A stretch of DNA of 64,000 bases, taken from assembly GCA_039924845.1 (NCBI GenBank), contig JBDTAC010000088.1, positions 1 through 64,000 on the forward strand, given 5' to 3'. Position numbers and translations under genes: made by a program. Source of the stretch: Bacteroidia bacterium. GTDB taxonomy: Bacteria; Bacteroidota; Bacteroidia; DATLTG01. This document shows positions 4,638-27,475 of this stretch, one piece after another. The first letter of the stretch is position 1. The number at the start of each line of letters is the position of its first letter. The notes under the pieces were generated by a model. It was not told where the DNA came from, made no database searches, and worked only from the letters and a program-made list of their open reading frames with translations.

Positions 4638-4747
4638 AGTTATACGCTATTGGCGCTCAGGTGTGAATTGTTTTCACATGGCAAAGATGAGCGGATAAGT
4701 ATTGATAAGTGTTACAGAGTAAAATGAATTAGTTACATTATTCACAC
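4638..4747 (-). repeat. 110-bp leader shared with the DUF3494 gene at 18182-19789 (copy A)
   Basis: This stretch matches 19803-19912 with three mismatches, all in the first 13 bases; the remaining 97 bases are identical. It covers the operator, the -7 box and the 5' leader. The leader holds an inverted repeat TGTGAA/TTCACA at 4662-4678 near the likely transcription start. Confidence 0.9.
4682..4747 (-). promoter_or_regulatory. TGTAA-N16-TGTAA promoter of 3812-4624
   Basis: Plus-strand view: -7 box CAAAGATG at 4682-4689, TTACA at 4712-4716, TTACATTATTCACAC at 4733-4747. Box to first repeat is 30 bp and repeat to repeat is 21 bp. No TTTG -33 element is present, as expected for an activator-dependent promoter. 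Confidence 0.75.
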
Positions 4748-4842
4748 TTTTTCAAATGTGCTTAACTCTCCTTCCGAATATTATATTCTTGACTTTTCTA
4801 GTTCTTTATTTTTCAAAATGTTGCTGAGTATTAATAAAAAAG

Positions 4843-4864
4843 GGTAGAGTTTTAAAACTCTACC
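4843..4864 (-). terminator. Terminator of the CsbD-like gene
   Basis: Perfect palindrome of 11-nt arms (GGTAGAGTTTT and its mirror) with A-runs on the left and T-runs on the right. It follows the CsbD-like gene on the minus strand. Confidence 0.85.
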
Positions 4865-4902
4865 TTTTTTTATTGTTTACTTAAATCGGGAAACAAGTGC
4901 AT

Positions 4903-5256
4903 TTAAGCCGTCTGTCCCTTTTTGATGATATCAATCACCTCTTCACGCTTTTTGCTCAGTCTATTTCCCATTCTGGTGAGCAATTCATTTTCTTTACCTG
5001 GTTCAAACTTTAAGTCTGTATCAGTAAGTTGTGAAAACTTTTTTTTCAGTTGATTAGATTGGTCTGACCAATTTCCGTTAATCTTAAAAGCATCATTACT
5101 TTTGTCTTGATTAAAAGTACCATTGCTTTTTTCTTGTTTTGAAGCATCGTTGCTTTTTTCTTGTTTAAAAGCATTGTTGTTTCTGTCTTGTTTAAAAGCA
5201 TCATTGCTTTTGTCTTGTTTCGAAGCATCATCGCTTCTGTTTTCTTTTGTGCTCAT
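4903..5256 (-). CDS. CsbD-like stress protein with an N-terminal 9-residue repeat array
   Basis: A 117-residue soluble, highly charged protein. Residues 58-117 match the CsbD family (NGNWSDQ, KKKFSQLTDTDL, GKENELLTRMGNRLSKKREEV), small general-stress proteins of unknown mechanism. The first 57 residues are unlike normal CsbD: six tandem 9-residue units of the type KQDKSNDAF, probably disordered. The gene is alone, with its own terminator and a TGTAA-type promoter, which fits stress induction. Confidence 0.8.
   Translation of the reverse strand: MSTKENRSDDASKQDKSNDAFKQDRNNNAFKQEKSNDASKQEKSNGTFNQDKSNDAFKINGNWSDQSNQLKKKFSQLTDTDLKFEPGKENELLTRMGNRLSKKREEVIDIIKKGQTA
5086..5247 (-). repeat. Six 27-bp in-frame tandem repeats in the CsbD-like gene
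   Basis: Six consecutive 27-nt units encode 9 residues each, following the pattern K-Q/E-D/E/N-K/R-S/N-N/D-D/N/G-A/T-F/S. The units differ by a few substitutions and there is no spacer, so this is an expandable coding minisatellite. Confidence 0.88.
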
Positions 5257-5294
5257 GATTTTATAGTTTAATTTGTAACTGAATTATTACGATA

Positions 5295-5361
5295 CAAAGG
5301 TGGCGCTCTATATAGTAAATATCATTACACTTTAACTGAAATGAAATACAGATATCACAGG
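5295..5361 (-). promoter_or_regulatory. TGTAA-type promoter of the CsbD-like gene
   Basis: Plus-strand view: CAAAGGTG at 5295-5302, TTACA at 5325-5329, ATACAGATATCACAG at 5346-5360. The spacings are 30 and 21 bp. The second half is a variant (ATACA) that keeps the CACA part in place. Confidence 0.65.
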
Positions 5362-5422
5362 TTTTCCAAATTTGTTCTACATTTTTGCGTCCTATTTTTT
5401 ATAAAAGGAATTGGCAGTTTGA

Positions 5423-5737
5423 TCAATGATTCTTTAACTTACTATCTATTTTTTCAATTGAAGCCTTTAATTTATCAAGAGCTTCGTTTAAAGCTTGCTC
5501 AATACTATTGGCATAACTGGTAACAGCAATAGGTTGCCTGTTTTCCATTCGGGCTTCCAGCATGCAACGTTTGTCGTTCTGTCCCGTTTTGCTTCCGTTT
5601 TCATCTGAAAGATGCACTTCGATGCGGGTGATGTGATCACTGAACCGCTCTAATTCAGCCCTTATTGTAGTATTGATAAATGCAGATATCTTTTGGGTTC
5701 CTGCTATGTTTTTGTCTGTATTAAATTGAATAGTCAT
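5423..5737 (-). CDS. HPF/RaiA-family ribosome-associated protein
   Basis: A 104-residue cytoplasmic protein resembling the short hibernation factor/RaiA fold: beta-alpha-beta-beta-beta-alpha with an N-terminal MTIQFNTDKNI strand, a central RIEVHLSDENG strand, a CMLEAR strand and a C-terminal helix (SIEQALNEALDKLKASIEKI). Family members bind the 30S decoding region and silence ribosomes in stationary phase. The gene lies 67 bp downstream of the baeRF-like gene and is probably in its operon, under a TGTAA-type promoter. It lacks the dimerising tail of long HPF. Confidence 0.8.
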   Translation of the reverse strand: MTIQFNTDKNIAGTQKISAFINTTIRAELERFSDHITRIEVHLSDENGSKTGQNDKRCMLEARMENRQPIAVTSYANSIEQALNEALDKLKASIEKIDSKLKNH

Positions 5738-5804
5738 CTTTTTAATTTTCTTAAGTTTGATTGAATTGTAGTGTTTTGCTTCAAGTTTTTATCGTTTGAT
5801 AAAA

Positions 5805-6188
5805 CTACTGCTTCGAGAAATGCGCTCTCACAAAAGCCTGCTTTTTATTCTCGGACATTTTATCGGTTGCCTGAACTTCAATTTTAATTTTTTCGAAACG
5901 ATGATCAGTGCGCAATACATTTAACAACTCCGTTTTCGCATCAGTAGGTCCAAATAGAATCACTTCGTTATAAAGGATAATCACATCTCCCAGTTTTTTA
6001 TAATAGGCCGCTTGATGTTGCTGCCTTTTATTATGCATCAAAAACTCTCCTTTGCTTAAAGCGAATTCCATATCATCATGGTTAAAGGTGTTGTTGATTA
6101 TTGCTGTTGGCGAAGATTCGTTATTTAATTCTATCAGATGTGCCTCTGAATGATCCATCCAAATTCCCAGTTTATTTGTTGTTGGCAT
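5805..6188 (-). CDS. baeRF-like (eRF1-domain-like) protein
   Basis: A 127-residue soluble protein. The start KLGIWMDHSEAHLIEL and the later segments KKLGDVIILYNEVILFGPTDAKTELLNVL and ATDKMSENKKQAFVRAHF follow the pattern of bacterial proteins related to the central domain of release factor eRF1 (often named host attachment or translational machinery protein). The full baeRF proteins are longer, so this is a minimal form. It may act on ribosomes, in keeping with the HPF gene just downstream, but that is inference. Confidence 0.55.
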   Translation of the reverse strand: MPTTNKLGIWMDHSEAHLIELNNESSPTAIINNTFNHDDMEFALSKGEFLMHNKRQQHQAAYYKKLGDVIILYNEVILFGPTDAKTELLNVLRTDHRFEKIKIEVQATDKMSENKKQAFVRAHFSKQ

Positions 6189-6239
6189 TACGTTTGTCGA
6201 TTTATTATTTTGAGTTGGACATCTATTTCCTTAACGGCA

Positions 6240-6305
6240 CAAAAGTGTGTCGTTTATCTGCCCGAACTGTTACACAATTAAAGATAAGAATTACATCATT
6301 CACAT
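6240..6305 (-). promoter_or_regulatory. TGTAA-type promoter of the baeRF-like/HPF pair
   Basis: Plus-strand view: CAAAAGTG at 6240-6247, TTACA at 6270-6274, TTACATCATTCACAT at 6291-6305. Spacings are 30 and 21 bp. Confidence 0.75.
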
Positions 6306-6404
6306 ATTGAAACACGACAGATTTTCCAAATCATCCTTCTGCTTTTGTTTCAATTAATGATCATTTCTCGATTTTAAGTTTAAAGAGTATGATAGGCGGG
6401 ATAT

Positions 6405-6806: not shown

Positions 6807-6807
6807 T

Positions 6808-7152
6808 TTATTTTTTTCCAAATAATTTTTTAATTAAAAACACACGTATGGGAGTCTCTATCAGCTTTTTTCTGCCAATGACCATTATAAACATGAGTAG
6901 AAAATAAAAGCCGGCAACAATTGCGAACCCCTTGCAATTACTGTTGAGTAATACGGAAAGATAAAAACCTGCCCACATACTTATAAAGAAAACAAATAAT
7001 GTAGCAAATAAGCCAATAATAAGCCCGCTGATAATTACGGAACCAATAATCGATGATTGCTGAGTGGCTTCCAACTTGAGTAACTCCGAATTGGTATTCA
7101 GGTAATTCTTCAAGCCTTCAGTAAGCTCTTCGGTTTTATTTTTTTCGGACAT
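6808..7152 (-). CDS. Phage holin 3_6/DUF1469-like membrane protein
   Basis: A 114-residue inner-membrane protein. A charged N-terminal helix (residues 1-30) is followed by two long hydrophobic segments, about 34-66 and 74-98, and a basic C-terminus (LIKKLFGKK). This is the layout of the DUF1469/putative holin-X family, often encoded beside YtxH or DUF883 stress proteins. Despite the family name there is no phage context, so a lytic role is unlikely. It lies between the YtxH-like and helical-protein genes. Confidence 0.75.
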   Translation of the reverse strand: MSEKNKTEELTEGLKNYLNTNSELLKLEATQQSSIIGSVIISGLIIGLFATLFVFFISMWAGFYLSVLLNSNCKGFAIVAGFYFLLMFIMVIGRKKLIETPIRVFLIKKLFGKK

Positions 7153-7167
7153 TCTAATTATATCTGT

Positions 7168-7437
7168 TTATACTTCGGACTTAATTGCTTCGGTAATTTC
7201 CTCCAGTTTTGATTCGGCAAGCTCTTCAAGTTCTGCTGCTTTGGCACGCAGAATTTCTGCTTCCTCTTTCAATTTTTTTCTTACGTCTTCTGTCAGGTCT
7301 TTTGCTCCTGTTAGGATTCTGTTTCGTGTAGTACTGCCTTTATCGGGCGCAAACAAAATTCCAAGCGCACCACCCACTAAGGCTCCCGCAACAAATGCTG
7401 CAATCATTTCGATGTTATTTGATTTTTTTGCTTCCAT
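7168..7437 (-). CDS. YtxH domain-containing protein
   Basis: An 89-residue protein. Residues 9-31 form one membrane helix with the Gly-rich YtxH signature (AAFVAGALVGGALGILFAPDKG). The rest is a long charged amphipathic helix (LTEDVRKKLKEEAEILRAKAAELEELAESK is the type of pattern), probably a coiled coil facing the cytoplasm. YtxH proteins are general-stress membrane proteins of unknown mechanism. It is the second gene of the operon starting at 7675. Confidence 0.85.
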   Translation of the reverse strand: MEAKKSNNIEMIAAFVAGALVGGALGILFAPDKGSTTRNRILTGAKDLTEDVRKKLKEEAEILRAKAAELEELAESKLEEITEAIKSEV

Positions 7438-7465
7438 TTTTTGATTTATTAGTTATAAATATAAG

Positions 7466-7675
7466 TTATTTCTTTGCACTTTTCCAAAAAACAATGCAGC
7501 CAGCAGCTATTACTACTATCCCAAGCACGGGCGACCAACTGAAATTATGTGGTTTGTCTCGCGTAATTTCTACATTTCCAATATCAGCCACTTTTTTCTG
7601 AGTGAAAATTTGAGTAGAAGTAGTAACGGTTAATCCGATACCAATAATAATAAGGATGATTCCTGTTGCTTTCAT
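7466..7675 (-). CDS. Small two-helix membrane protein
   Basis: A 69-residue protein with membrane helices at both ends (KATGIILIIIGIGLTV and SPVLGIVVIAAGCIVFW) and a polar loop between them. I chose the ATG at 7675; a TTG nine codons upstream also fits. It somewhat resembles DUF3185-type small membrane proteins but I cannot assign it. It is the first gene of a four-gene envelope-stress unit controlled by the TGTAA-type promoter at 7754. Confidence 0.6.
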   Translation of the reverse strand: MKATGIILIIIGIGLTVTTSTQIFTQKKVADIGNVEITRDKPHNFSWSPVLGIVVIAAGCIVFWKSAKK

Positions 7676-7753
7676 AAGTGGATTCAATTTTTTTAATATC
7701 AAGCCAATATTGATATTATTTGAGCTTTAGCCGAACACATCAATATTACGGGA

Positions 7754-7819
7754 CAAAGATAGCATTCATGTAATAAATATCATTACACTTTAGCTGTAAA
7801 GACTTACATATATCACAGG
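7754..7819 (-). promoter_or_regulatory. TGTAA-type promoter of the YtxH operon
   Basis: Plus-strand view: CAAAGATA at 7754-7761 (a perfect TATCTTTG on the coding strand), TTACA at 7783-7787, TTACATATATCACAG at 7804-7818. Spacings are 29 and 21 bp; this is the one site with 29. Confidence 0.7.
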
Positions 7820-7845
7820 TTTTTCAATTTTCCTGAGATTAGGTT

Positions 7846-8238
7846 TTATCTGTGCCTATCGCTACCTGATTTCATCCATTTATCAGCCATTCTCAATAGA
7901 TTTTCTAATTGGAATGGTTTAACGATATAATCATCGGCGCCAAGTTTTAATGCTGCCTTCCGATCAACCTTTTCGGAATTTGATGTACTAAAAATAAAAG
8001 GAATATCGTATGTTCTGGCTGTTTCTAAAAGCAAACGCAAAACCTCATGTCCATCCATTTCACGCATTAAGACATCACATATTATTAAATTGGGAATATG
8101 TTCTCTGGCAAGTTCAACTCCCATTTTTCCGTTGCCGGCTATAAGAACCTTGTACCCTTTTAGTTCAAAATATTCGGATAAATTCTCAAGAATATCATTA
8201 TTGTCTTCAATAAGTAAGATTGTTTTCAATTGCATCAT
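7846..8238 (-). CDS. Single-domain CheY-like response regulator
   Basis: A 130-residue receiver domain with no output domain. The acidic pocket (Glu11, Asp12), the phosphoacceptor Asp55 (LIICDVLM), Ser84/Thr85 and Lys107 (IVKPF) are all in place, so it should be phosphorylated by a histidine kinase. No kinase gene is in the window. Members of this type pass phosphate in relays or bind partner proteins. It sits in the stress block but its own upstream region lacks the TGTAA repeats. Confidence 0.92.
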   Translation of the reverse strand: MMQLKTILLIEDNNDILENLSEYFELKGYKVLIAGNGKMGVELAREHIPNLIICDVLMREMDGHEVLRLLLETARTYDIPFIFSTSNSEKVDRKAALKLGADDYIVKPFQLENLLRMADKWMKSGSDRHR

Positions 8239-8680: not shown

Positions 8681-9319
8681 CTAAAGTCTAAATCCGATGT
8701 CTATTTGACCGCTAACGTTTTTATACCTTGGCGAAGAAGATGTTCCATCGCCATTATTGTCCTGAACATCCCAACCTACTCTTCCGCTTAAAACAACAAT
8801 TCCAATATTTATGTCCAAACCAGCCGCAATGCCAAATATATTTTTCCGTACGTTATTTAGTTCGAATTGCTGTTGTTGTTGGTAGCTCACAGCTGAACTT
8901 GTGAATACATCTTTTTGTTTCATGAGATAAGAATATTGAGGACCCACAAGCAAAGTAAGAAACGGACTTGGTTTAAGTGCAAGGAATATAGGGATATCTA
9001 AAAATGTACTTGTTCTGGTGAAAGTGTAAGGAAACCCTAATAAATCTCCAGTTGCTTTGAATCCCTTTTGCGTAACCAAAACCTCTGGTTGAACTCCCAA
9101 ATATGTTCCGATGGGAATTGCTAAAAAAGCTCCACCTGTGAAACCCAATTTAGCATCAGCATTAAAATCCTGTCCTTGGGTGTCATATACATTCGAGTAG
9201 CTTCCGCCAACTTTTACACCTATCTGTAATGCATTACGATTATCAGTAGTGTTGTCCTGTGCGTTAACTATAGTTCCCAGCAACAGAAATAATGCGGTAA
9301 TTTTAATTGTTTTTTTCAT
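8681..9319 (-). CDS. Outer membrane beta-barrel (PorT-like) protein
   Basis: A 212-residue protein with a cleavable signal peptide (about residues 1-20, ending VNAQ). The rest alternates hydrophobic and polar residues with Gly/aromatic turns, as in the PF13568 outer membrane beta-barrel family: GVKVGGSYSNV at the first strand, LGFTGGAFLAIPIG, LGVQPEVLVTQKG, and a C-terminal GQIDIGFRL strand. An eight-stranded barrel is likely. The role is unknown; it is between a coiled-coil lipoprotein and an lmo0937-like gene in one operon. Confidence 0.85.
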   Translation of the reverse strand: MKKTIKITALFLLLGTIVNAQDNTTDNRNALQIGVKVGGSYSNVYDTQGQDFNADAKLGFTGGAFLAIPIGTYLGVQPEVLVTQKGFKATGDLLGFPYTFTRTSTFLDIPIFLALKPSPFLTLLVGPQYSYLMKQKDVFTSSAVSYQQQQQFELNNVRKNIFGIAAGLDINIGIVVLSGRVGWDVQDNNGDGTSSSPRYKNVSGQIDIGFRL

Positions 9320-9342: not shown

Positions 9343-9813
9343 TTATTTTGTATTATTTGTATTACTTTTAGTTAGGTCTTTTAATGCTTGTTGTAGATTA
9401 TCCATTTCGTGATTAAATCCAAGCTTAAAAGTTTCCCATTTATCATTGTCTTCTTCTTTGTAATTTGCTAATTCATTTTTCATTGCTTGATTTTTGGCTT
9501 CCAAATCATCTATCGTTTGTTCGTATCTGGCTTTCTCAGCCTTTTTCATTTTTTTGGAATCTTCCTTTAGTTCTGAAATGATTGAATCATTGGTTGCAAT
9601 TTTTCGATCTGATTCCAATTTGAACGCGTTATATTCTGTTGTATAATTTGCTTCTGCCTGCTTCAAATTTTTAGAAGCCTGGTTTACATTTGCTTGAGCG
9701 GTGTCTACTTTTGCCTCAGCGGTATTTGCCTTTTCAGAAGAGGAGGAACAGCCTGTCATAATCGTTCCTGCAATAAAAGCGGTGAGCGCAAGCGTAAAAA
9801 TTGTTTTTTTCAT
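9343..9813 (-). CDS. Coiled-coil lipoprotein
   Basis: A 156-residue protein with a lipoprotein signal (lipobox IMTGC, Cys22). The mature chain is nearly all charged helix with heptad patterns (AEAKVDTAQANVNQASKNLK; later KKAEKARYEQTIDDLEAKNQ), predicting a long coiled coil. It is reminiscent of Lpp- or YtxH-type periplasmic spacers, but no function is known. It is the first gene of the operon 9813-8480 and carries a TGTAA-type promoter. Confidence 0.75.
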   Translation of the reverse strand: MKKTIFTLALTAFIAGTIMTGCSSSSEKANTAEAKVDTAQANVNQASKNLKQAEANYTTEYNAFKLESDRKIATNDSIISELKEDSKKMKKAEKARYEQTIDDLEAKNQAMKNELANYKEEDNDKWETFKLGFNHEMDNLQQALKDLTKSNTNNTK

Positions 9814-9875
9814 ATTTGTTTTTTTAAGGATTTAATTGATTTCTTTATTATCATATATGATAAATTTTCATGCAA

Positions 9876-9941
9876 CAAAGATGAGGAAGTAAATAGGGGT
9901 GAGTGTTACAGAAGGCTTATTATAAGTTACATCATTCACAC
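9876..9941 (-). promoter_or_regulatory. TGTAA-type promoter of the lipoprotein/beta-barrel operon
   Basis: Plus-strand view: CAAAGATG at 9876-9883, TTACA at 9906-9910, TTACATCATTCACAC at 9927-9941. Spacings are 30 and 21 bp. It lies immediately beyond the 3' end of the mddA-like gene. Confidence 0.78.
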
Positions 9942-9945
9942 ATTG

Positions 9946-10729: not shown

Positions 10730-12700
10730 TTACTTTTTTAAAACCACGGGACTACTTACAATGGTAAATTCTGTGCACCTGCTTTTTTGACGCTCATCAT
10801 CAGAACAACTTGGCACAACATTTACATCACAAGAACATGCATTTACTAATTTTGCTTCGCCATATCCTTTACCCGAAATTCGTTTGGGATTTGTAATCCT
10901 TTCTTTAATATAATTCTCTGACGCATTTGCTCTTTCATCAGACAATTCTTTGTTATATGCTTCGGTTCCTCGACAATCCGTATATGATTTTAATTCAACT
11001 GTCATATTGGGATATTGGTTCAATACTTTAACTATTTTATTTAATTCCGTTTCAGCATCCGGACGGATATTGTATTTATCGAAATCAAAGTAAATGGTAC
11101 TAAATTTCACTCCTTTTATCTTCCCTAAATCAGTCCTTTCTTGAGGACCTTCTTTTATTGTCTTGTCAATAACTTCTTCTTTTGCAAGGAGTATCACATC
11201 AGCTTTTACAAGACTATCCGTACCAAAGGTATTGGCAATGGTATCGCCATCCATATAGGCTGCTTTTTTACCAATTAATTTATAGTTTTGATCAGCATCT
11301 GCTAAAAAGCGATATGTTGCATCATTCTCAGTTGTTACGGTATCTATTGTATTTCCTTTATCATCCAGTAATGTCATAAATGTTTTAGCAACAGGATTTC
11401 CAGTTTCGTCTTTTGCAGTGCCTACTATCATTTTTCTAAGATCTACTCCTTTTAAAAATTGAACGGAATAAATATCGTCATCTCCTTTTCCTCCAACTCT
11501 GTTAGAAGAAAAATATCCTTTCATTTTATCGTCAACAATCATAGCAAAATCATCATACTGCGTATTTAACGGGGCCCCTGCATTATATACAGAATCAATT
11601 CCCAAACTATTTTTTTTAGAAATAAATATATCTAAGCCGCCAAGTCCAAAATGCCCATCAGAAGCGAAGAATAAGGTTTTGCTGCTTTCTTCATAAAATG
11701 GGAATAACTCATCGCCTTCTGTATTTATCTTATTACCAAGGTTAACAGGAGTTGTCCATATCCCTTTTGCATCTTTTGTTGTTTTATAAATATCTACTCC
11801 TCCAAAACCTCCCGGCATATCGCTTGCAAAATACATCGTGTTTCCATCTGCTGATAAACAAGGGTCTCCAACCGAGTATGCATCATTATTATAAGTAAAT
11901 GGTTCTGGTTTCGACCATTTCCCATCTTTAAAATTACTAAAGCAGATTTGGAGATCTATCACTTTATCTTTTCTTTTATCATGTTTGATGTTTCTAGTAA
12001 ATGCCATAAAAGTGCCGTCTTTACTAAAACTTGCAGGCCCATCGTGCATTTTACTGTCTAAACTTTTATCGAAAATATGCGGCTTTTCTAATTGACCATT
12101 CTTAACATCTGAAACATACATTTTCAAGAATGGTTTCCCATTCAAATTGTATGTTCTTTTAATCCACTTAGGAGTAGCTCTTGTAGATGAAAAAACAATT
12201 TTATCTTTATAAAAGCAAGTACCAAAATCTTGGTCATCAGTATTAAAATCAAGATCAAGTAATTTGTATTTACCGTCATCTTTTACTAAATCATTCAACT
12301 TGCCTTTGTTTGCTTCATAATCCTTTGCTCGCAAATCAGTTGGTTTTAGTTCATAGAACTTATCCATTTCTTTGTTGGATTCTTCATATTTACCATTGCT
12401 TCTCAAAATCATTGCATAATTATAATAATCTTCTGGTAAGACGCCCTGGGAATTGGTTATTAATTTTGAATACACGACTTCTGACTCTACGTTTTTACCA
12501 ACAGCCCGATAACTTTGAGCCAACTTTCGCTGTCCATCAACAGTTAGGTTTTTTGTGTGTGTATACGCATCAATGGCATCGTTATACGAATAACTAAAAG
12601 CATATTTATCTCCTCTTTTTTCTTTGCGCGACTTTTCTTGAGCCTTTGTGTTTATACTAATACTAATTAGCACGATTATTGGAATAATTATTTTTTTCAT
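10730..12700 (-). CDS. PorE-like OmpA-family protein (TPR, beta-propeller, OmpA)
   Basis: A 656-residue exported protein. Order: signal peptide (residues 1-20), TPR-like helices (25-130), a WD40/PD40-like beta-propeller (150-410; repeats such as GDPCLSADGNTMYFASDMPGGFGGVDIY), a carboxypeptidase-regulatory-like domain (425-500) and a C-terminal OmpA domain (540-650; FSTIYFDFDKYNIRPDA, and TDCRGTEAYN with SDERAN for peptidoglycan binding). This is the architecture of the T9SS protein PorE, except that no lipobox Cys is seen. It lies directly after a PorP/SprF gene and probably anchors that system to the cell wall. Confidence 0.88.
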   Translation of the reverse strand: MKKIIIPIIVLISISINTKAQEKSRKEKRGDKYAFSYSYNDAIDAYTHTKNLTVDGQRKLAQSYRAVGKNVESEVVYSKLITNSQGVLPEDYYNYAMILRSNGKYEESNKEMDKFYELKPTDLRAKDYEANKGKLNDLVKDDGKYKLLDLDFNTDDQDFGTCFYKDKIVFSSTRATPKWIKRTYNLNGKPFLKMYVSDVKNGQLEKPHIFDKSLDSKMHDGPASFSKDGTFMAFTRNIKHDKRKDKVIDLQICFSNFKDGKWSKPEPFTYNNDAYSVGDPCLSADGNTMYFASDMPGGFGGVDIYKTTKDAKGIWTTPVNLGNKINTEGDELFPFYEESSKTLFFASDGHFGLGGLDIFISKKNSLGIDSVYNAGAPLNTQYDDFAMIVDDKMKGYFSSNRVGGKGDDDIYSVQFLKGVDLRKMIVGTAKDETGNPVAKTFMTLLDDKGNTIDTVTTENDATYRFLADADQNYKLIGKKAAYMDGDTIANTFGTDSLVKADVILLAKEEVIDKTIKEGPQERTDLGKIKGVKFSTIYFDFDKYNIRPDAETELNKIVKVLNQYPNMTVELKSYTDCRGTEAYNKELSDERANASENYIKERITNPKRISGKGYGEAKLVNACSCDVNVVPSCSDDERQKSRCTEFTIVSSPVVLKK

Positions 12701-12720: not shown

Positions 12721-13662
12721 TTAAAAATATCTAGGAGAATGTATTTGTTTGTCGCTTGGAAATATAAAATCGTATCTCAATACAATTTCATTACTTCCCT
12801 GGTTATACCGGGATGTTGCTAATCCAAATGACCAATCGTATGAATAGCCAATATGAAACTGTTCTGTAATATTTACACCAACTAAAGCGCCAAAAGAATC
12901 GCCAGTGCGAAACATGGCACCAAGCAATAATTTTTTCATGATAACGAAAGAAGCTGTAAGATCAGCCTGAGCAGGAGCGCCAGCCGTTACTTTCAGAAAA
13001 GCTGTTGGTTTAAACCCAAGGTTATCGCTAACTTTAAGCATTGCTCCTGTAATCAGAAAATAAGTTCTTTGCTCGTTTCCTACCAATGTACTTCCATCTG
13101 GCTGATTTATTACAGAATAATTATTCTGTAATAAATCAGGTACTGAAATACCTGCATAAAAGCTTTCTCTGTAATAATATGCGCCAAAACCAAAATTAGG
13201 TGTAACGTGGCTATTGATATTATTTTGAAATACGACATCATTTTGTTGATCCAGATTCAGGGTATTCAGGTTCGCCTGAAACATATCTGCACCAGCACTT
13301 ATACCAAGTGCTAATTTGGACACTGCATTCATTTTCATGATGTATGCAAAATCAACTGCAAACGATGTATTATTTATAGGACCTATTTTATCATTCAATA
13401 CAGACAAGCCTATGCCAAGATGCTCGTTTTGCAAAGGTGCATGTATGGTTAATGTTTGGGTCGTTGGCGCACCACTAAAACCAACCCATTGGTCACGGGC
13501 GAGTGCCGTTACGGTCAAAGCCTCTCTGCTTCCAGCATAGGCCGGGTTAATAGCTAAGGTATTATACATATAATGGGTAAACAAAGGAGCTTGTTGTGCA
13601 CGAACTGTTATATTTCCTAAGGCTAACACCAATACAGGAATTATTTTTTTTAGTGTTTTCAT
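12721..13662 (-). CDS. PorP/SprF-family type IX secretion membrane protein
   Basis: A 313-residue outer-membrane beta-barrel protein. The signal peptide ends VRAQ (about 22). The family hallmark PLFTHYMYNTLAINPAYAGS follows directly. Later come LGIGLSVLNDKIGP, GFGAYYY and the C-terminal IGYSYDWS...NEIVLRYDF. PorP/SprF proteins help deliver and hold T9SS substrates with type B sorting domains at the cell surface. The gene lies 36 bp after the large substrate gene (13699-16485) and 20 bp before the PorE-like gene, which is the classical arrangement. Confidence 0.93.
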   Translation of the reverse strand: MKTLKKIIPVLVLALGNITVRAQQAPLFTHYMYNTLAINPAYAGSREALTVTALARDQWVGFSGAPTTQTLTIHAPLQNEHLGIGLSVLNDKIGPINNTSFAVDFAYIMKMNAVSKLALGISAGADMFQANLNTLNLDQQNDVVFQNNINSHVTPNFGFGAYYYRESFYAGISVPDLLQNNYSVINQPDGSTLVGNEQRTYFLITGAMLKVSDNLGFKPTAFLKVTAGAPAQADLTASFVIMKKLLLGAMFRTGDSFGALVGVNITEQFHIGYSYDWSFGLATSRYNQGSNEIVLRYDFIFPSDKQIHSPRYF

Positions 13663-16485: not shown

Positions 16486-16522
16486 AATTTAAAATTTTAT
16501 TTGTGAATTAATTATCACGGAG

Positions 16523-16588
16523 CAAAAATGCGGCAGAAAGAGGCGCTATGTTTTACATATTAAAAAGATGTTGTTACATCATTCACAC
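16523..16588 (-). promoter_or_regulatory. TGTAA-type promoter of the DUF3494/SprF/PorE/mddA operon
   Basis: Plus-strand view: CAAAAATG at 16523-16530, TTACA at 16553-16557, TTACATCATTCACAC at 16574-16588. Spacings are 30 and 21 bp. The operator overlaps the 3' end of the catalase gene. Confidence 0.76.
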
Positions 16589-18074
16589 ATTTCAATTCTT
16601 TCATTATCTTATTTATATCAATACCTAAGCCTTTGGAAATTGCCATTCCAAGCTTTGTATCCAAGCGAAAAAAATAACACAATTGCCGGTTGATTATTAA
16701 TTCCTTTTTTTCTCCGTCAATTCGACTCATGGAATCAACAATGTTTGAAACTAAATTATGTCTGTCGTAATCATTCATAGCATTATTGAATAAGCATCCA
16801 GCTTGTGTGTAATGATCATCTTCACCTTTCCCGTTTCTGTCATACCAATCAGCAATAGTATTATCTAAAGTCATTGCGAATTCTTTGTATTTTTTATCAG
16901 CATAGATAGTATCAAAACGATTTGGCGAATAATTTGGGGCATCTTCTCCATTGTTGCCCATTGTCATTGCACCATCGCGTTCGTAATTAGCAATCATATA
17001 AGGACATTTATTTACTGGAATCTGTTCGTAATTTACTCCCAAACGATAACGATGTGCATCGGGATAAGTAAGTAAGCGCCCTTGTAATAATTTATCGGGA
17101 GAGTAACTAATGCCATCTACAATATGTGCAGGTGCAAATGCCGATTGCTCTACTTCGGCAAAATAATTTTTTGGAATTTGATTTAATTCCATTGATCCTA
17201 CCTCAATCAATGGATATGTTGCATGAGGCCAAACTTTTGTAATGTCAAATGGATTGAAAGAAAGGTTATTCGCTTGCTCGTTTGTCATCACTTGTATTTG
17301 TAATTTCCATTTTGGAAAATTCTTTCTGTCAATGGCTTCCACCATATCGCGTTGTGCAAAATCAAGATCTTTACTTTTCATTTCAGCCGCTTCATCATTG
17401 GTGAAGTTTTTTATTCCTTGCACTGTTTTAAAATGAAACTTCACCCATATTTTTTCATTGTTTTCATTTATCATTGAGAATGTATGTGAGCCATATCCAT
17501 TCATGTGTCTATGTCCATAAGGCGTTCCTCTATCACTCATCAAAATCAAAACCTGATGTAAACTTTCTGGATTTAAGCTAAAATAATCCCACATCATAGT
17601 TGGATTTTTGCAATTCGTTCGCGGATCTCTCTTTTGAGTATGAATAAAATCGCTAAATTTTTTGGGATCTTTTATAAAAAAAACAGGAGTATTGTTTCCC
17701 ACTAAATCCCAATTACCATCTTCTGTATAAAACTTTACAGCAAAACCTCTTGGATCTCTTTCGCTATCAGCGCTGCCTTTTTCACCACCCACCATCGAAA
17801 AACGAGCGAACACTTTTGTTTGTTTTCCTATTGTATTAAATAGTTTCGCTTTTGTATATTTTGAAATATCATTTGTAACCGTAAATGTGCCAAATACCCC
17901 CGTTCCCTTAGCGTGAACAACCCTTTCGGGAATTCGCTCACGGTTGAAGTGAGCCATTTTTTCATGAAGAATATAATCTTGTAAAAGCAATGGACCTCGA
18001 ACTCCTACACTCATTGTGTTTTCATCTTCGGTATAAGGTCTGCCCGATGCAGTAGTTAATTTTTTGTTTTTCAT
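16560..18074 (-). CDS. katA: Catalase (monofunctional heme)
   Basis: Breaks down hydrogen peroxide. At 504 residues it is a small-subunit clade catalase. The distal His54 (RVVHAKGTG) and Asn127 (DLVGNNTP) are present. The proximal heme-ligand Tyr lies in GRLLTYPDAHRYRLG. The conserved FARFSMVGGEKGSADSERDPRG and ANYERDGAM segments are intact. The protein has no signal peptide. The gene stands between a DUF3494 gene and the surface operon. Its upstream gap (18075-18181) is filled by a bidirectional hairpin, so its own promoter must be close to the start or overlap that hairpin. Confidence 0.97.
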   Translation of the reverse strand: MKNKKLTTASGRPYTEDENTMSVGVRGPLLLQDYILHEKMAHFNRERIPERVVHAKGTGVFGTFTVTNDISKYTKAKLFNTIGKQTKVFARFSMVGGEKGSADSERDPRGFAVKFYTEDGNWDLVGNNTPVFFIKDPKKFSDFIHTQKRDPRTNCKNPTMMWDYFSLNPESLHQVLILMSDRGTPYGHRHMNGYGSHTFSMINENNEKIWVKFHFKTVQGIKNFTNDEAAEMKSKDLDFAQRDMVEAIDRKNFPKWKLQIQVMTNEQANNLSFNPFDITKVWPHATYPLIEVGSMELNQIPKNYFAEVEQSAFAPAHIVDGISYSPDKLLQGRLLTYPDAHRYRLGVNYEQIPVNKCPYMIANYERDGAMTMGNNGEDAPNYSPNRFDTIYADKKYKEFAMTLDNTIADWYDRNGKGEDDHYTQAGCLFNNAMNDYDRHNLVSNIVDSMSRIDGEKKELIINRQLCYFFRLDTKLGMAISKGLGIDINKIMKELKCVNDVTTSF

Positions 18075-18181: not shown

Positions 18182-19789
18182 TTACTGTAATGAAATCAGC
18201 TTGCCTGATTGTATTACAGTATTGTCTTGAATCACTTTATAAAAGTAAATACCAGAAGGAAGTGAATTAGTTCCAATTATGGTGTTTGAATTATTAATAA
18301 GTGTATTCATTACTTCAACACCAAGAACATTATACATTATAAATTCACATTTATTGATTTGTGTGGAATTGTTTTTAATGTTAATTTGGTTGCTAAAAGG
18401 ATTAGGAAAAACACTAATCAATTCTTTTTTATCAACTACAGGAACGCCAGTTGCTGTACAAATAGGAGCCATTGTAGTGCTAATTGAATCAGTAGTAAAA
18501 GACCCGCTCGTTGTATAAACTCTTCCGTTAATTGTAGCTTCTTTGTCTAAACTAACGGCACCGTTATTACAAACTATTGTTCCATTGAAATCCGAATAAT
18601 TATTTATTTTTACTGCACCATTCACTACCCAAAATACATTTTTTGATTGTGTTCCGTTAATCAAAATAACTTTTGAATAAGTGCTTGTTGCAAGTGCTCC
18701 ATTTATCTTGATAACAAATACCGCATTCGCATTACTTTCCGCATTCAAATAAAGAGAATCTGTAAATGTTGTTGCGGCATTCATAATATAAGTATGTGGT
18801 GTTAAAACTAAATTCCTTCCAAACTGTACAGGATACAACAACTCAATATCAGCAGGTAATGTGTTCAAATAAGTATAAACATTCCCCAAATCTGTTGCAC
18901 ATATTGCTGTAGATGCGTCAGGAGTTGAATGAATTGTCCCTGTTACAAATAAGGGAGTAAAGCCAGTAGTTAAACCTACATTTGTTCCAACATCCCCCAT
19001 AACATGTGTAACGCCAGTATTTGTAAGTGATCCGTTACCAGAAAACAACGCATAACAAGCAGTTGAAGCTAAGTTAGGATAGGCAGGACCCGTTAGTAAA
19101 GGACTTCCGCAACCAATCGGCGTATAAGCAAGTACTCCGTCAACAGTAACAGAGCCTGCAGTAGAAAGAGCTCTACCTTCAAGAGTATCGCCCGTATTCA
19201 TATTAATTGCCGCATTATTCGCAACTATAGTTCCTTTCATAAAAGTTCCTGCCGCCATACTTACCAAGCCTTCCACTTTCCAATATACATTACATGCCTT
19301 AGCACCGTTAATCAATTTTACTTTTGAATCAGCAGAGGTTGAAAAAGAGCCTTGAATTTGAAAAATAAATACAGCATTCGGATTTCCTTGTGCATTCAAA
19401 TAAAGATTTAAGTTAAGTGTTGTTGCCGCGGAAATAGAATACACACCAGCAGTAAGCGTGTCTCCGTTACCTAAAAGAGGTGCAGGAAAAAAAGTTGGAG
19501 TGGTAGCATTTAACTGATTATACGCATTCAGCAAATCAGTTGAACATTGCGCACTTGCTGCATCTCCATCATGCATAACACCATTCACATTTCCAAACCC
19601 AGTACTCGATCCGTTGTTCGTACCTACATTTCCTGTAATCTGTGAAATACCCGAATTAGTTACAGCGCCATTTGTTGTGAAGAGTTCAAAATCTGCTGCG
19701 GTACCGAGATTAATAGCTTGTCCGAAATTAATTATTGGAATTAAAAGCAGAGCAACTACAATTAATTTAGTTAGTATTTTAGTTTTCAT
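18182..19789 (-). CDS. Two-domain DUF3494 protein with T9SS type A sorting domain
   Basis: A 535-residue secreted protein: signal peptide (1-25, ending NFGQA), DUF3494 domain 1 (about 26-232), DUF3494 domain 2 (240-445) and a type A sorting domain (454-535, VFPNPFSNQINIKNN and GIYFYKVIQDN) that directs it through the type IX system to the surface or medium. The two domains resemble those of 13699-16485, but there are no Ig or DUF11 spacers. Ice binding or adhesion is inferred from the family. It has its own promoter, with the leader duplicated at 4638-4747. Confidence 0.92.
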   Translation of the reverse strand: MKTKILTKLIVVALLLIPIINFGQAINLGTAADFELFTTNGAVTNSGISQITGNVGTNNGSSTGFGNVNGVMHDGDAASAQCSTDLLNAYNQLNATTPTFFPAPLLGNGDTLTAGVYSISAATTLNLNLYLNAQGNPNAVFIFQIQGSFSTSADSKVKLINGAKACNVYWKVEGLVSMAAGTFMKGTIVANNAAINMNTGDTLEGRALSTAGSVTVDGVLAYTPIGCGSPLLTGPAYPNLASTACYALFSGNGSLTNTGVTHVMGDVGTNVGLTTGFTPLFVTGTIHSTPDASTAICATDLGNVYTYLNTLPADIELLYPVQFGRNLVLTPHTYIMNAATTFTDSLYLNAESNANAVFVIKINGALATSTYSKVILINGTQSKNVFWVVNGAVKINNYSDFNGTIVCNNGAVSLDKEATINGRVYTTSGSFTTDSISTTMAPICTATGVPVVDKKELISVFPNPFSNQINIKNNSTQINKCEFIMYNVLGVEVMNTLINNSNTIIGTNSLPSGIYFYKVIQDNTVIQSGKLISLQ

Positions 19790-19802: not shown

Positions 19803-19912
19803 AGTTATGCGTTACTGGCGCTCAGGTGTGAATTGTTTTCACATGGCAAAGATGAGCGGATAAGTATTGATAAGTGTTACAGAGTAAAATGAATTAGTTA
19901 CATTATTCACAC
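19803..19912 (-). repeat. 110-bp leader shared with the DUF3494 lipoprotein gene (copy B)
   Basis: Partner of 4638-4747, with three mismatches over 110 bp. It includes the operator, the -7 box and the TGTGAA/TTCACA leader hairpin. Confidence 0.9.
19847..19912 (-). promoter_or_regulatory. TGTAA-type promoter of 18182-19789
   Basis: Plus-strand view: CAAAGATG at 19847-19854, TTACA at 19877-19881, TTACATTATTCACAC at 19898-19912. Spacings are 30 and 21 bp. Confidence 0.76.
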
Positions 19913-19931
19913 ATTTTAAACAGCCCCCAAT

Positions 19932-21235: not shown

Positions 21236-21568
21236 TTATAAAGCTACTGCAAGCATACTTTTGCATTCTGTCGCACATTTGCGACAAGCTGCTGCACAAT
21301 CTTTGCAATGCTGCATGTCAGAATGCTTTTCACATTCAGTTGAACAAGCAATACAAGCGTCTTCACATTTTTTGCAAAGGGCTTCTAAATTTGCAGAACC
21401 GTTTTTACTCGCAGTGATTAAATTACTACAAGCATCTTTGCAGGCAATACAAAGTCTTATGGAATTTTCCATTCCAGTTTTACCTTTGTTTTCTGTTGAA
21501 CAAGTACCACAAGTGTCAACGCACTTTTGACAAGCGGCAATGCAGCTTTCAATTTTTTTAGTTTCCAT
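21236..21568 (-). CDS. Four-helix-bundle copper-binding protein (Csp/DUF326-like)
   Basis: A 110-residue protein with 18 cysteines, nearly all in CxxxC or CxxC spacing along the predicted helices (CIAACQKCVDTCGTC, CIACKDAC, CKKCEDACIACSTEC, CKDCAAACRKCATEC). This is the pattern of the copper-storage protein family, in which Cys line the core of a four-helix bundle and hold many Cu(I) ions. There is no signal peptide, so this would be a cytosolic form. It is monocistronic under a TGTAA-type promoter, which links copper handling to the stress block. Confidence 0.9.
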   Translation of the reverse strand: METKKIESCIAACQKCVDTCGTCSTENKGKTGMENSIRLCIACKDACSNLITASKNGSANLEALCKKCEDACIACSTECEKHSDMQHCKDCAAACRKCATECKSMLAVAL

Positions 21569-21605
21569 TTTTTTATGTTTTATTTGTAACTGAATTATTA
21601 CTCGA

Positions 21606-21672
21606 CAAAGTTGATTCCATTATAATTGATAAACCTTACATAAGTCTATACTATTAGTTATATCATTCACAC
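21606..21672 (-). promoter_or_regulatory. TGTAA-type promoter of the Cys-rich copper-binding gene
   Basis: Plus-strand view: CAAAGTTG at 21606-21613, TTACA at 21636-21640, TTATATCATTCACAC at 21658-21672. Spacings are 30 and 22 bp; the repeat has one T for C. Confidence 0.68.
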
Positions 21673-21801
21673 ATTAGGGATGTGCTTTCAAAAGGAGCGT
21701 TTTTAGCACTCCGAAAAGAAGAAGATAAAGAGAGAAATGCAAATTTTCTGATAATACAGGATAGCTAATTAAATAGGATTAATTTTTTGGAAACTGACCA
21801 T

Positions 21802-23580: not shown

Positions 23581-24579
23581 TTAGGCTTCAACAATCATTT
23601 TACCTGTATTTTCACCTTTAAATAAGCCTAATAAGGCTTCCGGTAATTTATCAAATCCTTTAATTATTGTTTCAGTAAATTTCAATTTATTTTCTTTTAC
23701 CCATTGTGTTAATTGTTTAATGCCTTCCGGAAAATCATTTTTATAATTACCAACAATAAAGCCCTGCATTAATACACTTCTGGTAAGTAGCATAGGTTGC
23801 AGTCGAGGACCCATTGGTATTTCGGTAGTGTTATATAGAGATATTTGTCCGCATAAAGGAATACGAGCATTAAAATTAATATTACTAATAACAGCATCGG
23901 ATATTTTGCCACCTACTCCATCAAAATAAATATCAACCCCTTTAGGAGCGGCTTCTGCAATAGCATCGGATAAGTTGGCGACAGTTTTGTAATTGATAGC
24001 TTCATCAAAACCATATTTTTCTTTTAGTAATTTTATTTTTTCATCAGATCCTGCAATGCCAATTACACGACAACCTTTTATTTTTGCAATTTGTCCCACT
24101 ACTAAACCTACTGCACCAGCCGCTGCCGATACAACAACTGTTTCGCCCGCTTTTGGTTTACCTATGTGTATTAAGCCAAAATAGGCGGTTAAGCCCGTCA
24201 TTCCTAAAATATCTAAATGATAACTTATAGGAGCTATTGAAGGATCAATTTTTTGTAAGCCTTTTTCTTGTGTAATGGTTTGCTCGCGCCAAGGTAACAT
24301 ACCTGCAACGATATCACCTTTTATAAATTTATTTGTTTTACTTTCAATAACTTTTGCAATAACCCCACCTTCTATAGCTTGATTGAGCAGAAACGGTGGA
24401 ACATACGATTTTGCATCGTTCATCCTGCCTCGCATGTATGGATCTACTGAATAATACAAACTCTTCAATAAAACTTCGTCCTCCTTTATTTCAGGCAAAT
24501 CTATTTCTTCGAGTTTGAAATTATCAAGCCTTGGTGTGCCTTTTGGTCTTGATGAAAGTATAAATTGTTTTGTGTTCAT
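23581..24579 (-). CDS. NADP-dependent oxidoreductase, CurA-like MDR family
   Basis: A 332-residue cytoplasmic enzyme of the zinc-independent MDR group. The start RPKGTPRLDNFKLEEIDLPEI, YYSVDPYMRGRMN, the Rossmann fold motif AAAGAVGLVVGQIAKIKGCRVIG and ARIPLCGQISLYNTTEIPMGPR are characteristic of leukotriene B4/curcumin reductase-type enzymes reducing activated double bonds with NADPH. It has its own TGTAA-type promoter with a short 29-nt leader. With the Old Yellow Enzyme encoded next to it, it suggests detoxification of reactive enones. Confidence 0.92.
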   Translation of the reverse strand: MNTKQFILSSRPKGTPRLDNFKLEEIDLPEIKEDEVLLKSLYYSVDPYMRGRMNDAKSYVPPFLLNQAIEGGVIAKVIESKTNKFIKGDIVAGMLPWREQTITQEKGLQKIDPSIAPISYHLDILGMTGLTAYFGLIHIGKPKAGETVVVSAAAGAVGLVVGQIAKIKGCRVIGIAGSDEKIKLLKEKYGFDEAINYKTVANLSDAIAEAAPKGVDIYFDGVGGKISDAVISNINFNARIPLCGQISLYNTTEIPMGPRLQPMLLTRSVLMQGFIVGNYKNDFPEGIKQLTQWVKENKLKFTETIIKGFDKLPEALLGLFKGENTGKMIVEA

Positions 24580-24607
24580 GAGATAGTTTTTTTTAGGATT
24601 AGTTTCA

Positions 24608-24673
24608 CAAAGGAAAAAACATCTAATTTATATAGCATTGTATATTAATAAAGAAAACTTGCATATATCACAG
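24608..24673 (-). promoter_or_regulatory. TGTAA-type promoter of the CurA-like gene (degenerate repeats)
   Basis: Plus-strand view: CAAAGGAA at 24608-24615, TTGTA at 24638-24642, TTGCATATATCACAG at 24659-24673. Spacings of 30 and 21 bp are kept, although the repeats are weaker. Confidence 0.55.
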
Positions 24674-24881
24674 CATCTTTAATTTGAAAGATTTGTTGAA
24701 CAATTCAAGAGCCTATTTGAATAAGTTATTTTTTATTGAATTCAGGGTAAAGGTAACGCATATCTTGCTATTGTATATGACGTTTATCATCTCAGGATTC
24801 AAAAAAACATCAAGATTATTATGGATTTTACTTGTCATTTTTTAACCAACGAAATGCACTTCCCTTAAACATTATATAGTG

Positions 24882-24950
24882 TTCAAAATGTAATTATATT
24901 TGTCAGCTAAAGCAGTGTACTTTTATTTGAAAGAATAGAACTCTGATACG
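24882..24950 (+). repeat. 70-bp dispersed repeat, copy 2
   Basis: Partner of 21802-21872. Here it has no gene downstream on the plus strand, so a TATATTTG-started transcript would run into the convergent neighbour. Confidence 0.75.
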
Positions 24951-25062
24951 TCAGCTTCGCGTCCACGGGGCTTTTGGTTTTGTGAATTGAAAAAATAATT
25001 TTTCAACCCACGTTTTTCAATTGCAAAATAATCCTTTTACTAGAATGTTCTAAGTTTTAGAT

Positions 25063-26172
25063 TCACTTGGCAATAGGAGCAAGTAATGGCTCGTAAATTG
25101 GATAATCAGTATATCCTTCTTTGTTAGGGGTATAAAATAAATCCATCCGTAAATCTTTTGATACAGGCCAGTCATGTTTATATCTTTCAACTAAATCAGG
25201 GTTACAAATAAACGGGCGACCAAAAGCGATAAGATCAGCTAATCCACTTTCAATATCGGCTTCTGCTCTTTCCTTATCATAATTACCGGATTGTATAATA
25301 GTGTTTTTAAATATCTCTCTAACAGCTTTTTTTATTTCCATCGGCACTGTAGGCGCACCCATTGCTGAATGATCAACAAGATGTATATAGGCTATTCCCA
25401 GTTTATTAAGCTGCTCGGCAAGGTATTTATAAGTTGCATCAATTTCAGGATAGGGTTTCATATCATTTGTCACTCCGAAGGGCGATAGGCGAATTCCAGT
25501 TCTTCCTTCTCCAATTGCTTCGGCAACAGCTGCTACAACTTCAATAACAAACCTGCAACGGTTTTCAATAGTTCCTCCATAAATATCCTTGCGCATATTA
25601 CTTTGTGGCGAAAGGAATTGTTCAAGTAGATAGCCATTGGCGCCGTGTAGTTCTACTCCATCAAAACTCGCCTTCATTGCATTTATAGCGGAATCTACAT
25701 ACTCTGCTTTTGTATGAGTAATATCCTTAATGGTCATTTCTGTTGGAACAGGAAAGTCTTGCAGTTGCTTTGTATCAGTAAACATTTGACCTGCCGCTTT
25801 TATTGCCGATGGTGCAAGTATAGTAGAACCTTTCGGCATATTAAGGACGTGACTTATTCTTCCGGTATGCATAAGTTGAACAAATATCTTTCCTTCCTTT
25901 TTATGCACTGCCAAAGTTGTTTTTTTCCATCCTGCAATTTGCTCTTTACTAAACATGCCTGGTATACGTGCATAGCCGAGCCCGTTAGGCGATGGTGAGG
26001 TGCCTTCAGTTATAATGAGCCCTGCATCTGAACGTTGCTCATAATATTCGGACATTAATTCATTTGGGATATTGCTAATAGCTCTGCTTCTGGTAAGCGG
26101 ACACATTACAATCCTGTTCTTAACCTTTATTTCGCCAACTGTAAATGGCGTAAATAATTTGTATTCTTTCAT
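25063..26172 (-). CDS. Old Yellow Enzyme-family alkene reductase (NemA-like)
   Basis: A 369-residue cytoplasmic FMN enzyme reducing activated alkenes or nitro compounds with NADPH. Typical segments are NRIVMCPLTRSRA, the substrate-binding HGANGYLLEQFLSPQSNMRKDIYGG (His-x-x-Asn pair), GIRLSPFG, and a C-terminal GLADLIAFGRPFICNPDL flavin-phosphate loop. Length is normal. It lies upstream of the CurA-like gene but is separated from it by 483 bp and lacks the TGTAA repeats, so it is regulated differently. Confidence 0.95.
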   Translation of the reverse strand: MKEYKLFTPFTVGEIKVKNRIVMCPLTRSRAISNIPNELMSEYYEQRSDAGLIITEGTSPSPNGLGYARIPGMFSKEQIAGWKKTTLAVHKKEGKIFVQLMHTGRISHVLNMPKGSTILAPSAIKAAGQMFTDTKQLQDFPVPTEMTIKDITHTKAEYVDSAINAMKASFDGVELHGANGYLLEQFLSPQSNMRKDIYGGTIENRCRFVIEVVAAVAEAIGEGRTGIRLSPFGVTNDMKPYPEIDATYKYLAEQLNKLGIAYIHLVDHSAMGAPTVPMEIKKAVREIFKNTIIQSGNYDKERAEADIESGLADLIAFGRPFICNPDLVERYKHDWPVSKDLRMDLFYTPNKEGYTDYPIYEPLLAPIAK

Positions 26173-26313
26173 ATTCCCTTTAATTTAATTAGTTATGACA
26201 ATCGTGTTGCCTCTTGTATTCGCAAGATCTTTGTTGCTAATTGTGATAGCATTCAATAAAACTGTTATACTGAACAATTTTACTTTAAAGCATTTCCTGT
26301 TTTGTATACTTTC

Positions 26314-27237
26314 TTAGACATTATCTGCCTTTGTTTTATCACTTTCTTTATTTATTTTTTCCTGCCCAATTCCCATGGTCAACGCTGTTAATCCTGCCAT
26401 GCTGCCCAGTTGCATCGTATCCACTGCTGAGCTTGGAACAATTACAATAGTTGAATTTTCTTTTAGTCCTTCATAGAGCATATTCATCGCCCGTAAATGG
26501 AGGGCTACCGGATTATTTGCATAGGTTAAAGCTGCCTCCGCAAACTTCTCCGCAACTTGTCTTTCTGAATCGCCTAAGATTACACGTGCTTGTCGTTCAC
26601 GCTCTGCCTGAGCTTGCATAGACATTGCATCTTCCAATGAAGGCGGAATTAAAACATCTTTTATTTCAACAGAATTAACTTTAATACCCCAAGGTTCCGT
26701 GCGATCATCAATAATTTTTTGCAGTACACTGCTAATTTTATCTCTACCTTCAAGCATTTCAGACAGCATCGTTTTTCCAATAACATCACGTAATGCAGTT
26801 TGAGATGCCCAGCTAATCGCGCTAATATAGTTTGCCACTTCAAGAGCCGCTTTTTTGGGATCTAATACTTTCCAAAACAATACAGCATCAACATCTACCG
26901 GCACGGTATCTTTTGTCAGGGTTTTTTCCGCAGTAAATGTAGTGGTGATAACACGTGTATCAATACAATAAGGAATAGTATCAAGGATAGGAATGATAAA
27001 AAATAATCCGGGACCTCTGAGTGATTGAAATTGACCGAGGCGCAACACTACCATTTTTTCCCATGGGTCAGCAATTCGGATGGAGGATGAAATTATCAGT
27101 GCAAGCACAAAAGCGCAAACTGCAATAATATCACATTCTATAGTATTTGAAGCGTTACTATAGGAATAAGACACTAACAAACCAGTGCCAAAAATCACTA
27201 TAAATATGAGTACGGAAAATAAACTTTTAGTTTTCAT
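26314..27237 (-). CDS. Slipin family (stomatin-like, SPFH domain) protein
   Basis: A 307-residue membrane protein with a short N-terminal membrane hairpin (residues 7-55) followed by an SPFH domain: WEKMVVLRLGQFQSLRGPGLFFIIPILDTI, then DAVLFWKVLDPKKAALEVANY and a coiled-coil region (AQAERERQARVILGDSERQVAEKF). Slipins organise membrane microdomains and often partner NfeD proteases, but no nfeD gene is nearby. The gene has a TGTAA-type promoter, with a long leader of about 108 nt. Confidence 0.93.
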   Translation of the reverse strand: MKTKSLFSVLIFIVIFGTGLLVSYSYSNASNTIECDIIAVCAFVLALIISSSIRIADPWEKMVVLRLGQFQSLRGPGLFFIIPILDTIPYCIDTRVITTTFTAEKTLTKDTVPVDVDAVLFWKVLDPKKAALEVANYISAISWASQTALRDVIGKTMLSEMLEGRDKISSVLQKIIDDRTEPWGIKVNSVEIKDVLIPPSLEDAMSMQAQAERERQARVILGDSERQVAEKFAEAALTYANNPVALHLRAMNMLYEGLKENSTIVIVPSSAVDTMQLGSMAGLTALTMGIGQEKINKESDKTKADNV

Positions 27238-27344
27238 TGTTAGCTTTATTTTTGATTAAGTTATTTGATATAAATTATATTTCGACTTTATTTATCCCAA
27301 TCATTTGGACTGTTCTTTATGCTACAGGGATTCTTTACACACTA

Positions 27345-27410
27345 CAAATTTGCCCGTATCTCTTTTAAAAAACATTACATTTTTCTTAAAATAAGTTACA
27401 TTGTTTACAG
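27345..27410 (-). promoter_or_regulatory. TGTAA-type promoter of the slipin gene
   Basis: Plus-strand view: CAAATTTG at 27345-27352, TTACA at 27375-27379, TTACATTGTTTACAG at 27396-27410. Spacings are 30 and 21 bp. Confidence 0.65.
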
Positions 27411-27475
27411 ATTTGTTTTTGAAGGAATAACTGATTTTTCTCCTCATTCGTCTAAAAGGCGAAAAATAAAAAAAC

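Follow-up and report, generated by a model that had tools for sequence, protein, structure and literature searches.

Ten promoters of a Bacteroidia bacterium mark a widespread regulon with a probable HMA-AraC activator

What do ten promoters on one contig of a Bacteroidia bacterium have in common, and which protein reads them? The window analyzed here is the whole 64,000-nucleotide stretch at positions 1 to 64,000 of contig JBDTAC010000088.1 (GenBank assembly GCA_039924845.1). The original prediction, made from the sequence alone, had described ten promoters in it with the architecture TGTAA-N16-TGTAA-N22-CAnnTTTG. We reproduce all ten, with the same coordinates, minus strand and spacing, including the two that deviate (starting at 7754 and 21606). 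We computed the distribution, geometry and recurrence of these sites, the genes behind them, the co-occurrence and adjacency of AraC genes, and the domain make-up and tree of a candidate regulator. Our reading, to which we give a probability of roughly 0.82, is that the ten sites are promoters of a single regulon of about 31 sites, activated by a protein of a family that joins an HMA-like domain to an AraC-type DNA-binding domain (HMA-AraC).

The site set is a real and widespread regulon that is not confined to the window. In the 2.66-Mb genome there are nine exact matches to the gapped pattern, six of which fall in the window, against none for a reversed control pattern. When three mismatches are allowed, the bare pattern gives seven hits in the window against a shuffle mean of 2.3, a modest excess, and sequence profiles were therefore built. 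Profile R1, made from 13 sites, recovers 31 to 32 in the source genome at a cutoff of expect value (E) about 0.01. A second, foreign-only profile was made from 150 sites on named Bacteroidota contigs. Its ten best matches in the window coincide with the ten predicted sites (42 to 13 bits); the eleventh scores 5.8 bits, and the best match among 12 dinucleotide shuffles 7.9. Genomes used for comparison were mostly metagenome assemblies. Related genomes carry 26 to 33 (G014), 15 to 17 (G029) and 31 (G095) sites, and the motif recurs in named species: Flavobacterium urumqiense (23), F. fluvii (16), Sunxiuqinia indica (14) and Niastella caeni (12).

The conserved repeats are longer than the TGTAA first noticed. 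Across 69 sites the consensus is TGTGAATnATGTAACTyATTTnAAAAGTTrTGTAACAC, followed by ~21 unconserved bases and CAyCTTTGy. It contains two direct half-sites, TGTGAATnATGTAACT and AAAGTTrTGTAACAC, 21 bp apart. Spacing was also scanned in 80 named loci (1.15 Mb) that had been reached via an AraC gene and not via the spaced pattern. There, TGTAA-N16-TGTAA-N22-NAnnTTTG occurs 45 times and the variant with N16 between the repeats and N21 to the box seven times; every other spacing tried in these loci gave zero. Of 153 boxes, 116 begin with C, 27 with G and eight with T, and the start codon lies a median of 34 bases past the end of the profile match. The primary-sigma -7 box of flavobacteria, as described for F. 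psychrophilum, is TAnnTTTG (PMC9723704). Here CAnnTTTG stands in its place, and the proximal repeat occupies the expected position of the -33 element. This agrees with the activator-dependent architecture that had been proposed, and is the layout expected for an activator overlapping the -33/-35 region.

Just past many boxes, at bases 4-22, where the transcript is expected to start, lies a short inverted repeat, GTrA-N7/8-TyAC (e.g., window positions 16503-16518 and 21586-21601, minus strand). Five-pair stems after the box were found at 23 of 120 foreign sites, compared with 7.6 expected when the halves were re-dealt. In the source genome the excess over the re-dealt control was not significant, and a 5' hairpin was rejected as the shared element.

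The regulator probably belongs to a family of HMA-AraC proteins of ~185 amino acids. The original prediction had left the regulator unnamed; we can name a strong candidate that lies adjacent to many sites and would bind them. A recurrent small AraC-type gene was seen in loci that had been found by the site profile alone. An independent search for the regulator in 40 relatives gave 15 copies, each at least 46% identical, in 13 other genomes, and 12 of the 15 have a site at the stop codon or no more than ~50 bases from the gene start. By chance, ~0.02 such cases would be expected (an estimate based on ~150 listed sites in ~140 Mb). The regulator adjoins a site in 50 of the 80 named loci. In 21 of these the site is upstream of the regulator gene, which is mostly of the MVSNRC type and as a rule has a PAS histidine kinase behind it; in the other 29 it lies at the stop codon and serves the next gene, often CsbD, behind a regulator mostly of the MVSLRC type. 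Among 149 genomes of the class, 51 have both the AraC gene and sites, 22 the gene only, nine sites only, and 67 neither. All 27 genomes with a close orthologue (regulator E <= 1e-60) have sites.

The source genome encodes two such proteins. One (G000:C73; L069:11501-12052) has lost the first Cys of the metal-binding motif and is followed by a PAS hybrid histidine kinase; the other (G000:C23; L071:3306-3842) retains an intact MxCxxC and is followed by DUF4142 and cupredoxin-like genes. The start codon of the source-genome regulator is probably a TTG (MKLYIKNMVSLRC...; L088:1480-1500), seven codons 5' of the first ATG. At L082:13848-13920, L086:6659-6739 and L095:2034-2108, among others, the site runs across the regulator's stop codon, such that the coding end and the next operator share bases. 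PAS hybrid histidine kinases adjoin the regulator at L069:12065-14707, L083:3911-5926 and L084:1009-2910. Many receiver-only proteins (FIVDDN type) also lie under the same promoters, a phosphorelay with no evident DNA-binding output.

Several observations weigh against this assignment. One genome with 18 to 21 sites (G125) has no HMA-AraC gene that could be found even by profile, and the same profile found none in three genomes with two to four sites each (G118, G062 and G005). Assembly gaps could account for some of these genomes, or a second regulator could be at work; the loci read in them (L234-L236 in G125, L237 in G118, L238 in G062, and those of G005) contain no other recurrent DNA-binding neighbor. 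Conversely, 10 of 55 genomes with an AraC match at E <= 1e-45 had no site at E <= 1e-3. The Fisher p of 1.4e-13 for the co-occurrence in 149 genomes is uncorrected for kinship, and the 80 named loci behind the adjacency count were chosen for the presence of the AraC gene. Finally, the two paralogues of the source genome are not distinguishable as owners of the sites: either could be.

The domain make-up of the candidate points to both DNA binding and a metal-binding past. Its C-terminal half matches Pfam PF12833 (5e-15) and PF00165 (3e-12) and has the two helix-turn-helix motifs of the AraC/XylS family. Residues 73-177 match AraC-type DNA-binding domains by profile (AraC 2k9s, AraT 6swi), and the predicted fold of this part matches MarA, AdpA and AraC. 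Members of the AraC/XylS family bind half-sites that are asymmetric and in many cases form direct repeats close to -35; here, repeats 21 bp apart lie at that position. By profile, residues 4-61 resemble copper HMA domains (ATP7B 8.5e-5, CopA 1.5e-4, CopZ 0.01), while the Pfam HMA model gives no match. In the predicted structure (mean predicted local distance difference test score 86.5), the N-terminal elements run E-H-E-E-H with a short last strand at 60-61, which is the beta-alpha-beta-beta-alpha-beta order of the HMA fold; Foldseek returns TTHA1718 (probability 1.00) and Atx1.

The clade associated with stress-type genes (stress clade) lacks MxCxxC, having MVSxRC in which the first Cys is lost. 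The full motif is present in the second paralogue (L071) and in relatives from copper operons. Many MxCxxC relatives are followed by a copper ATPase, an HMA chaperone or a multicopper oxidase, with the site at or just past the stop codon; the copper-linked members are found in L095, L097, L098, L100, L109, L110, L111 and L118. Such genes before copper genes are apparently an undescribed type of copper regulator in Bacteroidota. In the tree, the stress clade is nested within the MxCxxC type (support 98/91), and the second paralogue of the source genome, together with members from Chitinophagaceae and Mucilaginibacter, branches just outside it. As the tree is rooted at its midpoint, a course of evolution from copper to stress is likely rather than proven.

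The genes under the sites are of several stress and surface types. In the window, the regulon sites and a receiver-only gene beside one of them are as follows.

4671..4751, minus strand: regulon site 1, 5' of the DUF3494 gene 3812-4624; near-identical to site 7; foreign-profile match.
5284..5365, minus strand: regulon site 2, 5' of the CsbD-like small protein 4903-5256; foreign-profile match.
6231..6308, minus strand: regulon site 3, 5' of a gene for 127 amino acids (5805-6188), then an HPF/S30EA-type gene (5423-5737).
7744..7823, minus strand: regulon site 4, spacing one base short, 5' of a 78-amino-acid membrane protein (7466-7702).
7846..8238, minus strand: receiver-only response regulator (PF00072 only), just 5' of site 4; not a DNA-binding protein.
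9865..9945, minus strand: regulon site 5, 5' of 9343-9813, then an outer-membrane beta-barrel gene (8681-9319).
16512..16592, minus strand: regulon site 6, 5' of a DUF3494/CHU_C gene (13699-16485) of the type IX secretion system (T9SS).
19836..19917, minus strand: regulon site 7, 5' of a DUF3494/Por-tail gene (18182-19789).
21595..21675, minus strand: regulon site 8, one extra base between the repeats, 5' of a DUF326 Cys-rich copper-protein-like gene (21236-21568).
24600..24676, minus strand: regulon site 9, degenerate, 5' of a zinc-type oxidoreductase (23581-24579).
27335..27414, minus strand: regulon site 10, 5' of a slipin/Band_7 gene (26314-27237).

The first genes in the window are thus three DUF3494 genes, small CsbD-like and unknown proteins, a YtxH operon, an outer-membrane operon, the DUF326 cysteine-rich protein, the oxidoreductase and slipin. 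Behind site 4 follow YtxH (7168-7437) and a holin-X-like protein (6808-7152), and behind site 6 PorP/SprF (12721-13662) and OmpA/PD40 (10730-12700). The gene behind site 7 probably forms one operon with a catalase (16560-18074). Site 9 (starting at 24608), with TGCAA/TACAA repeats and a TTnnTTTG box, is the weakest of the ten, yet was recovered. Two of the gene labels first proposed, CsbD for 4903-5256 and HPF/baeRF for 5805-6188, lack Pfam support at E 0.01; the stress-type content as a whole stands. Outside the window, sites in the source genome precede genes for CsbD, superoxide dismutase, NorB, BON, a cytochrome, a phasin-like protein, DUF4142 and small His-rich proteins. Among first genes behind 175 sites from many species, DUF3494 (26) and CsbD (13) are joined by superoxide dismutase, BON, ferritin, PPK2, NorB and Band_7. 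Across six genomes, all 16 DUF3494 genes (two-domain matches merged) have a site just upstream, as do six of the seven CsbD genes. This gene content suggests a role in stress.

Other explanations account for the sites less well. Chance, or the recent duplication of one promoter over the region, is hardly credible. The promoters at 4671-4751 and 19836-19917 are near-identical over ~80 bases, leader included, which is a recent duplication of a DUF3494 promoter, so that the ten sites count as about nine independent ones; the remaining sites, however, differ outside the motif, recur in many bacterial families and are found by the foreign profile, and for the whole set this explanation is already refuted. 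It is also very unlikely that an alternative sigma factor, of the extracytoplasmic function (ECF) or another type, recognizes the shared element in place of an activator. The proximal TGTAAC does lie near -33 and the -7 box does depart from TAnnTTTG, but the two upstream repeats, reaching to about -65, are conserved as strongly as the box, so conservation is not limited to -35 and -10 elements, and we rejected this reading on architecture. Moreover, the box retains AnnTTTG, the core that the primary-sigma -7 element has in F. psychrophilum, and no CGT box, the ECF-type motif (PMC9723704), is conserved at ECF spacing from TGTAAC. A response regulator of the LytTR type, the original guess, would likewise bind direct repeats ~21 bp apart, and one LytTR gene (L068:10392-11084) lies in the C48 cluster of the source genome. 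It is the single LytTR seen near sites and does not recur beside them in the loci read (genome-wide co-occurrence was not counted), whereas HMA-AraC adjoins many, and AraC proteins also bind direct repeats 21 bp apart; we consider LytTR very improbable.

A more serious question is what the regulon responds to. The AraC regulator may be correct and yet answer to one specific cue, such as copper or thiol stress, surface attachment or a kinase signal, in place of general stress. The HMA ancestry would fit, as would the presence of DUF326 copper-protein and DUF3494/T9SS surface genes under the sites and of PAS hybrid kinases and receiver proteins in the operons. The breadth of the genes, in contrast, looks general (CsbD, superoxide dismutase, ferritin/Dps, HPF-type, slipin, PPK2, phasin-like and NorB), and we hold a specific cue to be possible but doubtful.

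Under activation by HMA-AraC, a dimer, or two monomers, of the small AraC-type protein would occupy both half-sites head to tail, as modeled on AraC at araI1-araI2 with its 21-bp period. The proximal half-site would overlap the -33 place of a housekeeping sigma-A type promoter whose -7 box may have drifted from TAnnTTTG to CAnnTTTG, and the bound protein would substitute for the missing -33 contact and recruit RNA polymerase. Control could come through the HMA domain, the co-encoded kinase or the regulator's own autoregulated level. The AraC protein has no receiver domain and there is no obvious path from kinase to AraC; the receiver-only proteins of the regulon may matter for the kinase signal. 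Historically, a copper-responsive activator of copA-type operons may have duplicated, lost its first metal-binding Cys and taken over many stress, envelope and T9SS surface genes. To the full scenario we give about even odds. In it, an AraC activator that once sensed copper lost half of its metal-binding site and was joined to an operon with a PAS hybrid histidine kinase; it would then have risen to master activator of a general response that covers stress and surface proteins, extends through Bacteroidota (some members being in Ignavibacteriota and Balneolota) and is the counterpart there of SigB, RpoS and EcfG.

For most of the Bacteroidota, a phylum abundant in soil, water and the gut, we know of no established general stress regulator. 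Consistent with the view that the regulon is undescribed, we found no published account of the motif, of an HMA-AraC copper regulator or of a Bacteroidota general stress regulon in the literature searched, which did not cover most subscription papers. The motif is precise enough for the regulon to be predicted genome by genome, a candidate regulator is named, and cultured Flavobacterium, Sunxiuqinia and Niastella carry the sites. These findings also link the DUF3494 surface proteins, which are ice-binding-like and on whose regulation little work seems to exist, with a defined switch, and they suggest how a metal sensor became a global regulator.

The closest mechanistic parallel is E. coli AraC at araBAD (class II activation). 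The candidate shares its AraC-type DNA-binding domain, and the direct half-sites 21 bp apart, with the proximal one at -35/-33, resemble the generally known spacing of araI1-araI2. Unlike E. coli AraC, it has an HMA-like and not an arabinose-binding N-terminus, would serve tens of promoters and has another half-site sequence. The F. psychrophilum motifs SM1-SM6 are sigma-factor motifs; the -7 box core AnnTTTG is as in SM1-3, while the main text of that study mentions neither AraC nor CsbD (PMC9723704). Copper-responsive copA activators, CueR of the MerR family and the two-component CopR, are matched by the MxCxxC members directly before copper ATPase and chaperone genes, but here the protein is of AraC type with a fused HMA domain, and the stress clade is without the first Cys. 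In gene content (CsbD, YtxH-like, BON, superoxide dismutase/catalase, Dps/ferritin and HPF-type), the regulon resembles what is generally known of SigB in Bacillus, RpoS in enterics and PhyR-EcfG in Alphaproteobacteria. These depend on alternative sigma factors, whereas here an activator would act on primary-sigma-like promoters, and DUF3494 and T9SS surface proteins are added. Activation by AraC is already known; the novelty lies in the fusion of HMA to AraC, in the likely shift of this protein from copper to stress, and in so broad a stress regulon in Bacteroidota.

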